A stretch of DNA of 64,000 bases, from assembly GCA_002364615.1 (NCBI GenBank), contig DEYP01000002.1:48680-112679 (forward strand), written 5' to 3'. The position numbers and the translations under genes are program-made. Below are positions 43,019-46,470 of this stretch, in pieces. Numbering within the stretch: position 1 is the stretch's first letter; every line of letters starts with the position of its first letter. The DNA comes from Arsukibacterium sp. UBA3155. GTDB lineage: Bacteria; Pseudomonadota; Gammaproteobacteria; Enterobacterales; Alteromonadaceae. The notes under the pieces are model-generated. The model saw only the letters and a program-made list of their open reading frames with translations. It did no database searches and was not told where the DNA came from.

Positions 43019-43717
43019 TTATAAACTCCAGTGCTGACGAAAGGCACTGGCCTGACGGCGTGAAATTTCTACCTGCTTATCATGCTGTAACTGCACGTCA
43101 AACCCGCCGGCAACAGACGGGGTGATCTCTTTGATGTAGTGAGTATTGATTATCCAGCTTCGGCTAGCCCGAAAAAAACTTTCGGCCGGCAGACGTTCAG
43201 CAATAGCGCTGATACTGCGATATGTCGCTGGTGCAGCATTGGCCAGATGTACCCTTGTGTAATTACCCATAGCTTCAAAACAAATGACATCAGCTAAGGT
43301 GACAAAGAAGCAATTATCCCCATCCTTTATAAAAATTTGCTGGTGTAGTGCCAATTTTTGTTCATTCTGACTAACAGGTTTTAACTTATCAAATGCAGAT
43401 TGCAAGCGTTTCAAGGTCACTGGCTTTAGTAAATAATCCAGTGCGTTATATTCAAAAGATTTGATGGCGTAATGATCATAAGCGGTAACAAAAATAACCT
43501 GTGGCAAATAATCCAGTTGCTCAAGGAGTTTAAAGCCATCGCCACCTGGCATGTTAATATCTAATAGCATGACATCAGGTTTCAGGCTTTGTACCAGTTG
43601 TTTCGCCTGACTAATGTTGGCAGCTTCGCCAACCAGAGTAGTGCCGCTAATCTGGTTTAACTGCTCAACTAGTTCTAACCGGGCCAGCCGGCTGTCATCT
43701 ACGACCAGAACATCCAT
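43019..43717 (-). CDS. LytTR-type response regulator
   Basis: A 232-residue response regulator. The receiver domain (1-120) has acidic residues in VVDDSRL, the phospho-acceptor Asp in VMLLDINMPGGDGF and Lys in YLLKPVTLKRL. The LytTR DNA-binding domain (about 130-230) has ICFEAMGNYTRVHL, FFRASRSWIINTHYI and VEISRRQASAFRQH. It lies 1 base after the sensor kinase gene, with TGGAG ahead of its ATG inside the kinase end. Such LytTR pairs often control envelope or secreted functions; the serine hydrolase upstream in the same operon is a candidate target. Confidence 0.93.
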   Translation of the reverse strand: MDVLVVDDSRLARLELVEQLNQISGTTLVGEAANISQAKQLVQSLKPDVMLLDINMPGGDGFKLLEQLDYLPQVIFVTAYDHYAIKSFEYNALDYLLKPVTLKRLQSAFDKLKPVSQNEQKLALHQQIFIKDGDNCFFVTLADVICFEAMGNYTRVHLANAAPATYRSISAIAERLPAESFFRASRSWIINTHYIKEITPSVAGGFDVQLQHDKQVEISRRQASAFRQHWSL

Positions 43718-43718
43718 T

Positions 43719-44777
43719 TTAAAACTCCAGTGGTAACCTTACGTGCGTGATCACTTTACTATTTTGGTGGTAAAGGCGTAGCCCCGTAGCACTACATTCA
43801 GGATATAACAGCGCCAGTCGTTGCCGAATATTGCGAAGGCCAACGCCGTGATGCTTAGCGTCGTTGTGCAGGGTGACGTCGTTGCGGATAATAACATCGA
43901 GCATCTGGTCTGTCTGATACACAGTAACGTCTATACCTCCGCCGTTAATCTCGGTACTAATTCCATGCTTAATCGCATTTTCGACACACAGCTGCAATAG
44001 CAATTTCGGTACAAGTGCCTGTTGAACGCTAACGGGTGCACTAACAGAAAAACGTAACCTATCTTCAAATTGAATGGAGCATAGTGCGATATATTCATCA
44101 ACAATAGCCAGCTCTGAATTCAACGTAACCTTGCTTGTATCGTCTTTGCTAAGACTGTAACGCAACATGTCGGCTAACCTGGCCAGCATTTCTCTGGCTC
44201 GCGCAGGGTCCTCCAGGATTAATGCCCTGATATTGTTGATAGCATTAAACAAGAAATGTGGATTGAGCTGATGGATCAAGGCATCAAGCTTACTCGACTT
44301 GAGAAGCTCGCTAGTTTGACGCAATTGTCTGACTTTGCTGATACTGAAATACAAGGCCGACCAGAAAAGTAGCGCCAGCAGCATATTGAAGAAATTACCA
44401 ATAGCTATTGTTTTAATCATAAATGTTGATTGCGACGCCGGAATTGGATCAGTTATACCCAAATGTGCGAGGCCAAATACGGTGCTAATTAGCAATAGCG
44501 TGGCCAGAGCGGCAACAAAAATACTGGCAAAGCCAAAAAACAAGAATTGCCGAATTGTTGATTTCTTAAAAATAATCGCTTTATATGTGCGGCGCATCAA
44601 ATGAGAGCCAACCGCGCTGCTGCCAATTAAGACGGCACCAAACAGCAGCTCTATCGCTGAGAAATAATGTTTATTAAATATCGATACCATAATTATGGTG
44701 TACAGGGTCAGCCATCCGCTCAGCTGACACACGAAATAAGCAAATTTGTCATGAAATCTGTATAGATATTTATGCAT
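43719..44777 (-). CDS. LytS/YehU-type sensor histidine kinase
   Basis: A 352-residue kinase with about four N-terminal membrane helices (residues 10-150), no large extracellular sensor, and a His_kinase domain with the phospho-acceptor His in LNPHFLFNAINNIRALI. The ATP-binding part has the N box CVENAIKHGI and G box GVGLRNIRQRLALLYP. It overlaps the stop of the serine hydrolase gene by one base (TAATG) and precedes the response regulator, so all are in one operon. Confidence 0.92.
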   Translation of the reverse strand: MHKYLYRFHDKFAYFVCQLSGWLTLYTIIMVSIFNKHYFSAIELLFGAVLIGSSAVGSHLMRRTYKAIIFKKSTIRQFLFFGFASIFVAALATLLLISTVFGLAHLGITDPIPASQSTFMIKTIAIGNFFNMLLALLFWSALYFSISKVRQLRQTSELLKSSKLDALIHQLNPHFLFNAINNIRALILEDPARAREMLARLADMLRYSLSKDDTSKVTLNSELAIVDEYIALCSIQFEDRLRFSVSAPVSVQQALVPKLLLQLCVENAIKHGISTEINGGGIDVTVYQTDQMLDVIIRNDVTLHNDAKHHGVGLRNIRQRLALLYPECSATGLRLYHQNSKVITHVRLPLEF

Positions 44778-45796
44778 TAATAATTTTTCTCTGCCATATT
44801 TGTTTCATCCTTTTGACGAAGTTGCTGCAGCAGCGCCATACCGGCTGGGGTTACCGGAATAGTGGAATTACTCAGGAGCACAACACCGACCTGCTCAGCA
44901 GGAGCAAAACCGACAAAAGCGTTAAACCCAGCAGTCTGCCCATTGTGCCAGACCGCCCCGTCGGGATGCAGCATCCAACCAAAGCCAACAGCAGGCTCAG
45001 ATATCAAAGTAGTTACTGATAAACGCATCGCGTCCGCCAATCCCGCCACCGTAGCAGATCCGGTATCTCCGATGGCGGTGGCTTGCAGATAATGCTGAAC
45101 AAGTAATGCCATGTCGTCAATTGTCGATAGTACAGCGCCAGCACCCGCCAGTGCCTGAAAATGCCAATTCGCTGTGGTTGAACCATCAATCTGGTATCCT
45201 TTTGCCAGATCTGGATATCGGCCGTTGGTCATGGCAACGTTACTGTCTGCCATACCCAGAGGTTGGAAGATTTGCTGTTTCAACAAGGTCGAAAAGCTAC
45301 TGCCCTGCTGCTGGCTGACTATCTCTGCCAGTAAACCAAAGCCTAAGTTTGAGTATTCAAACTGCTTCTCACCGGGCTGAACCGTTTGCATGGCCAACAT
45401 TAAATCAGCATGGGTATAATTTGCATAAGGATCTGTTAAGTCAGAAAGTGGCAGGTTTGGGGGTAAACGCGGCAACCCGCTGGTATGAGTAAGTAACTCA
45501 GCTACGTTGTATTGATGCTGCTGGTAATGTGTACCTTGTAACAGCGATGCTACGGAATCACTAATGGACAACTGCTGGTTATTAACAGCGAGTGCAGTCA
45601 CCAAACCGACTAAAGGTTTAGTGATTGAGCCAATTTCAAATAACGTTTTATTGCTAATGGCCCGGTTCTGCTGACTATCTGCCAGGCCGTGTAGGTAAAA
45701 ACGGGTGTGCTGTTCGCTGATGATGGCAATGGCAATACCGGCATCGTTGAATTCTGTATTTAACCATTGCTCAATATTAGCTAATGTCGGCTGCAA
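44777..45796 (-). CDS. Serine hydrolase (beta-lactamase family), likely C-terminal part of a frameshifted fusion
   Basis: A 339-residue class C beta-lactamase-like domain with SITK in FEIGSITKPLVG (SxxK), YSNLGFGLLAE (YxN) and WHNGQTAGFNAF (HxG). The family works outside the cytoplasm, yet this frame has no signal peptide, begins at a TTG, and GGAT 11 bases upstream is a poor ribosome binding site. The frame stays open upstream across the A9 run at 45815-45823 and is exactly the -1 frame of the preceding secreted protein. I infer that the functional product is a fusion of about 564 residues; see the slippery site entry. Independent translation remains possible. Confidence 0.82.
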   Translation of the reverse strand: MQPTLANIEQWLNTEFNDAGIAIAIISEQHTRFYLHGLADSQQNRAISNKTLFEIGSITKPLVGLVTALAVNNQQLSISDSVASLLQGTHYQQHQYNVAELLTHTSGLPRLPPNLPLSDLTDPYANYTHADLMLAMQTVQPGEKQFEYSNLGFGLLAEIVSQQQGSSFSTLLKQQIFQPLGMADSNVAMTNGRYPDLAKGYQIDGSTTANWHFQALAGAGAVLSTIDDMALLVQHYLQATAIGDTGSATVAGLADAMRLSVTTLISEPAVGFGWMLHPDGAVWHNGQTAGFNAFVGFAPAEQVGVVLLSNSTIPVTPAGMALLQQLRQKDETNMAEKNY

Positions 45797-45823
45797 TGGT
45801 TTACTTAATCCGTCTTTTTTTTT
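45762..45823 (-). other. Candidate -1 frameshift signal: A9 run, slippery heptamer and inverted repeat
   Basis: On the minus strand the end of the upstream gene reads TTA AAA AAA AAG ACG GAT TAA. This contains the dnaX-type heptamer A AAA AAG (45820-45814) in the correct zero frame. A -1 slip continues as GAC GGA TTA AGT AAA CCA TTG into the serine hydrolase. Twelve bases downstream, AACCATTGC (45801-45793) and GCAATGGTT (45770-45762) form a perfect 9-bp stem with a 22-base loop, possibly extended by GTA/TAC. The nine A residues could also allow transcriptional slippage: one added A gives the same fusion. Confidence 0.6.
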
Positions 45824-46470
45824 AATACCAATGGCATTGCAGTACCCTGAACAAAAGTGCCTTGCCAGCTGTCATTCTTCCAGGTTGCGCTGTAGTTGGC
45901 ATTTATGACGCCAGAGCTGAATTCCAGTTTGTCAGAGTTAATACTGAATTTATTAACCGGTATACCAAAGCTTTGCTGCTTAGGGCTGTCGAGTGTGACA
46001 TGATAGTCATCAGCTGCTACTGCTATGTTTAATACCAAAGGCAGGCGGGCACTTTTATTGATAATAAGATCGCCATGCCAACTACCTTCATTTTCCAATA
46101 ATTTAAGCTGCTGCTCATCAAGCTTTGTTAAATTTAGCTCACGGGCTTTACCCTGAATAAACTCACCCTGTAGCTGATCTTGTTTCAGGGTTCCGCTAAA
46201 ACTGGCATTAAGTTTATCATCCTGAAAAGTAACACGTTTACCGTCGATGCTGAATTGGCTGGGACGATAATTAAACATCCCCTGATTTGGACTGTCCAGC
46301 GTAAGGGTATATCCTTCAGGTGTATTATTGATATTAATGCCTATTGTCAGTGCTGCCTGCGGTGTCATTTGTAACTTTCCGCGCCATTTTCCAGATAGCT
46401 GCTCTGCACCAGCGGGTGCGGCAACGGTTATCATGAATAAAGCAGTGAACCATACCAGTAACTTTTGCAT
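45805..46470 (-). CDS. Secreted protein with two tandem homologous domains
   Basis: A 221-residue protein with a signal peptide (LLVWFTALFMITVAAPAGAE). The mature part is two copies of one domain of about 95 residues: GKWRGKLQM, LTLDSPNQGMFNYRPSQFSI, GEFIQGKARELNL and then GSWHGDLII, VTLDSPKQQSFGIPVNKFSI, GTFVQGTAMPLVL. This module, with a DSP-x-Q centre and F(V/I)QG end, also occurs (to my knowledge) ahead of secreted hydrolase domains. AAGGA lies before the ATG. It stops right after an A9 run, and the serine hydrolase is in its -1 frame, so this may be the N-terminal half of one larger protein. Confidence 0.8.
   Translation of the reverse strand: MQKLLVWFTALFMITVAAPAGAEQLSGKWRGKLQMTPQAALTIGININNTPEGYTLTLDSPNQGMFNYRPSQFSIDGKRVTFQDDKLNASFSGTLKQDQLQGEFIQGKARELNLTKLDEQQLKLLENEGSWHGDLIINKSARLPLVLNIAVAADDYHVTLDSPKQQSFGIPVNKFSINSDKLEFSSGVINANYSATWKNDSWQGTFVQGTAMPLVLKKKTD

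Follow-up and report, generated by a model that had tools for sequence, protein, structure and literature searches.

A conserved A9 junction that most likely marks a programmed frameshift between a predicted exported repeat protein and a serine hydrolase

The dnaX gene of Escherichia coli carries a stem and an upstream Shine-Dalgarno sequence. Three further systems, described in the parts of the cited texts to which we refer, are close to the one considered here. In dnaX of Thermus thermophilus, a nine-base run gives two nested products, with nearby stops in both of the other, unproductive frames (PMC5009743). In tssM1 of Citrobacter rodentium, the short product is read in the zero frame and the full-length one arises through extra A's, with two length variants; tssM3 of another species has the opposite polarity (PMC4256274). 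The magnesium chelatase fs-genes of the GeneTack study encode a chromosomal enzyme whose gene is split at poly-A, fused forms being found in relatives, and in a poly-A series the efficiency followed the run length, falling from 63% for 11 A to 40% for 9 and 10% for 7; in the same text, a shift direction that varies among orthologues is given as a mark of transcriptional realignment (PMC3711429). In a scan for 9A/9T runs, as reported in part of the source, six of the seven conserved cases were in insertion elements (PMC1088944), and conserved slippage in non-mobile bacterial genes seems to be rare.

Here, we analyze a candidate junction of this kind in a stretch of 64,000 nucleotides from Arsukibacterium sp. 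UBA3155 (contig DEYP01000002.1), called the window below, to which all coordinates refer. On the basis of sequence comparisons we consider it very probable that some programmed frameshift fuses a repeat protein and a hydrolase at this site, and we assign a probability of about 0.65 to a conserved programmed frameshift by RNA-polymerase slippage on a run of nine A's (A9).

All features of the locus are on the minus strand. The zero-frame ORF at 45805..46470 encodes a protein of 221 residues, predicted from the reading frame and an AlphaFold model to be an exported two-repeat beta-barrel protein, which would be the short product. It ends in TTA AAA AAA AAG ACG GAT TAA, giving the C-terminus LKKKTD*, and its stop (45805..45807) is located just past the A9 run (45815..45823, T9 on the plus strand), the candidate slippage site. 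The heptamer A AAA AAG, a possible -1 ribosomal slip site, is present there in the zero frame (45814..45820, read 45820..45814). From the run to 44777 the -1 frame contains no stop (345 codons plus the stop), and its part at 44777..45814, which we propose to be joined after slippage, consists of a linker and a PF00144 serine hydrolase (E 7.7e-49, with an alignment of 13 loci). As listed, the hydrolase ORF begins at a TTG (44777..45796), which is not conserved and is probably no real start; it is preceded by GATTAAGTAAACCA, with no clear ribosome-binding site. By inspection, the N-terminus of the repeat protein is Sec-like, while that of the hydrolase read from the TTG has nothing signal-like. 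A perfect-repeat scan gives a 9-bp inverted repeat with its left arm at 45793..45801 and its right arm at 45762..45770; its first base is 12 bases past the heptamer and the TTG lies inside it. When the 70 bases that follow the run were shuffled 2000 times by mononucleotide, an equally long repeat arose in 11 of the shuffles. The features from which an earlier note on this DNA had argued for a frameshift, namely the A9 run with its heptamer and open -1 frame, the signal-less hydrolase with its poor TTG start, the signal-bearing upstream protein without a catalytic domain, and the inverted repeat, are thus all present in the sequence.

As to the identity of the two parts, the repeat protein has no Pfam match at E 0.001 and none in NCBIfam at E 0.01. 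The hydrolase passes the gathering threshold of PF00144 (Beta-lactamase) with 167.1 against 27 bits. Its assignment as a class C beta-lactamase (NF033085) was rejected, the score being 129.7 bits against a cut-off of 415, and it stays under the cut-off of every NCBIfam model among the 25 of 47 listed. Upstream of the repeat protein gene there is a divergent msrB. Downstream follow a LytS-type histidine kinase (43719..44777; PF06580, E 1.5e-24), whose ATG overlaps the TAA of the hydrolase as TAATG, and a LytTR response regulator (43019..43717; PF00072 and PF04397), the latter being found downstream in loci with a long enough flank. The TAATG overlap at 44777 is an observation of its own, as slippage could there also set the translation of the kinase by coupling. 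By repeat protein, the closest named relative is Arsukibacterium indicum (81% identity).

We now consider the relatives. Among 31 genomes searched in the genus, 13 have a full-length repeat protein (E 1.3e-98 or better); the family search, over 295 genomes, gave 34 with a repeat match at an E value of at most 1.9e-45. The 34 family loci and six more from the genus search make 40 full-length loci, the window included; weaker family matches, which are shorter or of the alpha/beta hydrolase type, were excluded from the counts. Two loci were left out before counting, G574, which has no hydrolase, and G665, which has an internal TAA, and this leaves 38 with both parts intact. A class-wide search of 369 genomes gave matches in G000 and one other genome (best E 2.8e-12).

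The hydrolase adjoins the repeat protein in 13 of 13 same-genus loci and is out of frame with it in 12; the exception, G019, is a single frame of 570 codons despite its A9. The runs in the genus are A9 in 12 of the 13 and A8 in G005. The out-of-frame layout with A8-A10 is found in these 12 loci and in eight more in four other genera. Over all 38 loci, a junction run of 8-10 A is present in 21 and absent from 17. The layout is split in 20 of the 21 and in none of the 17, so that A8-A10 is present at 20 of 20 out-of-frame junctions and absent from 17 of 18 single-frame genes, with G019 as the exception. For this association Fisher's test gives 6e-10 over the 38 loci with kinship ignored, a value that overstates it, because the presence or absence of the run amounts to one change on the tree described below. 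The conserved split layout supports the products suggested in the earlier note, a putative exported fusion of about 564 residues and a short repeat-only protein.

The same layout speaks on two further explanations. The first is a sequencing error or a recent pseudogene, which the earlier note had named, as a one-base deletion, as the main rival. Homopolymers are error-prone, and one relative, G665, has an internal TAA, but the arrangement is shared by 20 genomes from five genera and spans deep branches, with the conserved residues kept. Since so many relatives keep it, the window junction is no sequencing error; the explanation fails in general, and we regard it as the most improbable of those considered. 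According to the second, phase variation, changes of the run length in the DNA would toggle the enzyme on and off. This would suit a homopolymer inside the gene of an exported protein, with A8, A9 and A10 found between species. However, one third of the run-bearing loci would be expected in frame at random, as opposed to the one found among 21 (binomial 0.0023, or 0.075 with 11 lineages), and that sole locus, G019, has the same A9 and owes its single frame to an indel behind the run. We therefore consider phase variation highly improbable. As G019 is in frame with A9, slippage there would make the short form.

The run also appears to be old. In an unrooted tree of the 38 hydrolase domains, presence versus absence of the run requires a single change (support 100/98), and the lengths of six run-bearing end branches exceed 0.4 changes per column, from which it follows that the run persisted over long branches. 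Its register varies, from xxA AAA AAA AAG to AAA AAA AAA in G295 and G533 and TTT AAA AAA AAC/AAG (A8) in two genera. As the length has stayed at 8-10, losses of A at one end must have been matched by gains at the other. From the codon use elsewhere in the same genes, LeuA-AAA-AAA is predicted at 0.015-0.35 per locus, and G012, which uses AAA for only 3 of 13 lysines elsewhere in both parts, still keeps A9. Taken together, the sequences indicate that the A9 junction is real and conserved, and it is most likely programmed.

The unproductive frames close quickly behind the run. A zero-frame stop comes 1-5 codons past it in 20 of 20 split loci, and the third frame closes within 14. The median of the longer wrong-frame distance is 5 (range 2-14) in the 21 run-bearing loci versus 15 (1-61) in the 17 single-frame loci that lack a run. 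A Mann-Whitney test of this difference gives 3e-4, or 0.0017 for 11 lineage representatives; the comparison is weakened by a counting point that differs slightly between the two groups.

It is then necessary to ask how the hydrolase frame is translated. One alternative is that there are two separately translated genes, with the hydrolase starting at the TTG or by coupling. A TTG or GTG is indeed present at +18 in the hydrolase frame in 6 of 13 same-genus loci, in the window 9 nt past the zero-frame stop, and G583 and G533 have an ATG at +4 and +20, respectively. The position is, however, not conserved. Four of the 20 split loci (G003, G016, G005 and G504) lack all three start codons, ATG, GTG and TTG, in the stretch that was scanned; an ATG occurs there in only four, the other two being G012 at -54 and G480 at +45. 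No start codon or ribosome-binding motif for the hydrolase is conserved among the split loci. In five loci, moreover, the conserved W, L, E and F residues of the WL..EF block precede any start, the earliest being at +90 in G003, +75 in G016, +87 in G005, +75 in G626 and +75 in G667. A separate start would also deprive the hydrolase of export, and natural single-frame fusions exist. On these grounds separate translation seems very improbable.

The linker itself gives a mixed picture. In nine pairwise comparisons covering 18-75 nt after the run, 22 changes are synonymous and 26 non-synonymous in the hydrolase frame. In the four pairs of the G003 group, which share sequences and include G023 with a TTG at +36, 15 of 17 linker changes are synonymous; for G003 versus G023, seven changes fall within the first 75 nt, and six of them are synonymous in the hydrolase frame. 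In the G504/G480 and G009/G026 pairs, the changes are mostly non-synonymous. By this measure, only one group shows clear selection on the linker; the hydrolase that follows it is clearly conserved in the alignment of 13 loci.

We now return to RNA-polymerase slippage as the preferred explanation. The polymerase would slip on the A9 run and generate a mixed mRNA population. The unslipped mRNA would give the exported two-barrel repeat protein of 221 residues, ending just past the run, and an mRNA with one extra A would give the exported repeat-linker-hydrolase fusion of about 564 residues. We infer that slippage occurs and that it is mainly transcriptional, and its rate likewise. Polymerase slippage is favored because the long run is kept whatever the register and the next base, which is G, C or T and varies among loci, and because neither a Shine-Dalgarno-like string nor a conserved stem accompanies it. 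No such string is found in any of the 21 run-bearing loci (seven strings, 22 nt upstream of the run). A conserved RNA stem was rejected on the basis of folding against shuffles and a perfect inverted-repeat scan, and the stem of the window recurs at the same place in only three of the 21 loci, with 9 bp in G000 and G028 and 8 bp in G001. The stem remarked on in the earlier note is thus not upheld as a conserved feature, and the comparison with relatives that the note proposed came out in two ways: the A run is conserved, but the stem is not, and single-frame relatives exist. The direction of the shift is -1 in 18 of the 20 split loci and +1 in two (G005 with A8 and G583 with A10); these two are possibly homopolymer assembly errors, and if real they would bear the mark of transcriptional realignment named above (PMC3711429).

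The alternative to which the dnaX-type heptamer of the earlier note points is ribosomal slippage, with -1 frameshifting at A AAA AAG giving the same two products and the long run being incidental. The heptamer, of the form X XXY YYZ, is present in the zero frame in 12 of 13 same-genus loci, it or another tandem-slip site is found in most loci, and the prevailing -1 direction fits equally. Downstream, the window has its 9-bp stem at 12 nt, strong structure is predicted for G295 (z -5.2) and G023 (z -3.1), and folding over 80 nt is somewhat stronger than in the control, with mean z values of about -0.7 for 50-nt and -1.2 for 80-nt stretches versus -0.16 for 80-nt segments 300 nt further on. On the other hand, the upstream string is missing from all 21 loci and the 8-9 bp stem from all but three, the run of 8-10 exceeds the six A's needed by the heptamer, and AAC or AAT replaces AAG at the site in g32 and in three alpha/beta hydrolase loci. 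We thus consider ribosomal frameshifting possible but doubtful, and less likely than slippage of the polymerase.

Long A/T runs are rare in the genome in question. A pattern search of its own assembly (3.89 Mb) gave 34 overlapping matches of nine A/T, corresponding to 30 separate runs. All of these were inspected with at most some 700 bases on each side, and for each run the frame that stays open over the longest distance before it was reported. More than 230 open codons before the run together with more than 230 in another frame after it are found for two of the 30, the window junction and the ATG-A9 start of a following gene (L167). The latter was rejected as a second A9 frameshift junction, since with its ATG before the run it is an ordinary gene start. 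Its sequence is nevertheless worth recording: at base 701 of L167 (G000 contig 29, 179391), the ATG is followed by A9 (MKKKW...), and this start, prone to slippage, lies shortly after the preceding gene ends.

The predicted structures give some insight into the two products. The AlphaFold model of the repeat protein (mean pLDDT 91.6) consists of two similar all-beta repeats, and its last strand covers residues 210-217, residue 217 being the first lysine of the run. In the model of the natural fusion of G019 (mean pLDDT 84.4), values under 50 are found only at residues 1-18 and 220-234, the latter stretch beginning a few residues past the run. As the run is at the end of a complete domain, the short product should, according to these models, fold alone. 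For the repeat fold, Foldseek gave no match at E <= 0.001; FABP, UnaG and U-Omp19 barrels were found at probability 1.00 with E about 0.03-0.06, which is only a hint that the repeats may be calycin-like.

The gene neighborhood suggests a possible function. All 20 split loci have a same-strand kinase match that begins no more than 45 bases from the hydrolase stop, and of the 18 single-frame loci nine have one, at a distance of up to 91 bases (Fisher 3e-4, with kinship ignored and flanks of some 440-2800 bases). A rule that the kinase requires a split gene was rejected, as the kinase is also present in those nine. Since 17 relatives lack a run and use a single frame, nine of them having a kinase downstream, the short product is not needed everywhere. 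It may have a role of its own, perhaps together with the kinase. G019 (L135), the sole in-frame run-bearing gene and a single case, has no kinase behind it, the best matches elsewhere in its genome being partial (39%, residues 135-351); similar second kinase matches are found in G003 and G574 besides their own partner kinases. In G574 (L133, 1624-4108), a repeat ORF of 218 residues with a run of A6 is followed by kinase and regulator ORFs of full length, and the hydrolase between them is missing. To judge from its sequence, this single case is a natural loss of the hydrolase, and with it of the long product, in which the repeat protein and the regulators were kept. As a separate observation, G205 (L056) has a single-repeat ORF of 164 codons followed by a partial kinase match and a LytTR regulator, and looks like a decayed relative of the operon.

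A second enzyme class is found in another family of the order. In G370, G315 and G344 (L054, L055 and L058), a homologous repeat protein ends in A9, and the -1 frame behind it encodes an alpha/beta hydrolase (PF12146, E 2e-15, 2.4e-14 and 2.5e-17, respectively), which is EstD-like, although below the NF041096 cut-off for L058; kinase matches are located behind all three. A single-frame alpha/beta relative, G334, has the kinase, and any A run near its junction is shorter than 7. The three splits stand among single-frame sequences in a tree of 21 alpha/beta rows, of which 19 differ, and group there at weak support (68/36). These sequences would fit two independent origins of the split as well as an exchange of the hydrolase behind a run that was already there. 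As a tentative idea, which we hold to be rather unlikely, slippage might be the built-in ratio setter of a sensing operon, in which an exported ligand-binding double barrel informs the kinase and a barrel-hydrolase fusion destroys or makes the ligand. This device would then have been arrived at twice, the two hydrolases being unrelated, the barrels in front of them homologous, and a kinase-regulator pair following in each case.

Taken as a whole, the family is a natural series, with split and single-frame genes, three run lengths, one reversal of polarity (G019), a loss of the hydrolase with a short run (G574) and two enzyme classes. Gene finders will see two genes here, one of them a hydrolase without a signal, where one exported enzyme is probably made. 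Among the literature matches listed, none is a publication on this repeat-hydrolase gene family. A text search of PMC3711429 finds no word beginning with "lactamase" in the main text, and in the first 300,000 of the 475,107 characters of PMC5009743 neither "lactamase" nor "hydrolase" begins a word.

Finally, the locus can be set against the systems introduced above, within the parts of the texts cited. It is like Thermus thermophilus dnaX in its nine-base run, its two nested products and the nearby stops in the unproductive frames (PMC5009743); there, however, the long product is read in the zero frame, whereas the window locus needs a slip for it, and only G019 has the Thermus polarity. With Escherichia coli dnaX it shares the A AAA AAG heptamer (PMC3711429), but the split loci have no conserved stem or upstream Shine-Dalgarno sequence, and the shifted product is the short one in E. 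coli and the long one here. The magnesium chelatase fs-genes resemble it in that the gene of a chromosomal enzyme is split at poly-A and has fused relatives (PMC3711429); they are unrelated genes, and the part of that text referred to mentions no export or kinase operon. The polarity of Citrobacter rodentium tssM1, with a zero-frame short product, full length through extra A's and two length variants, corresponds to that of the window, and the opposite polarity of tssM3 to that of G019 (PMC4256274), although tssM1 has A11 and is part of a secretion system, as opposed to a predicted exported enzyme with A8-A10. The mechanism is thus most likely a known one, as in dnaX and tssM1, found in a new gene family, and it is unusual for a non-mobile enzyme gene.
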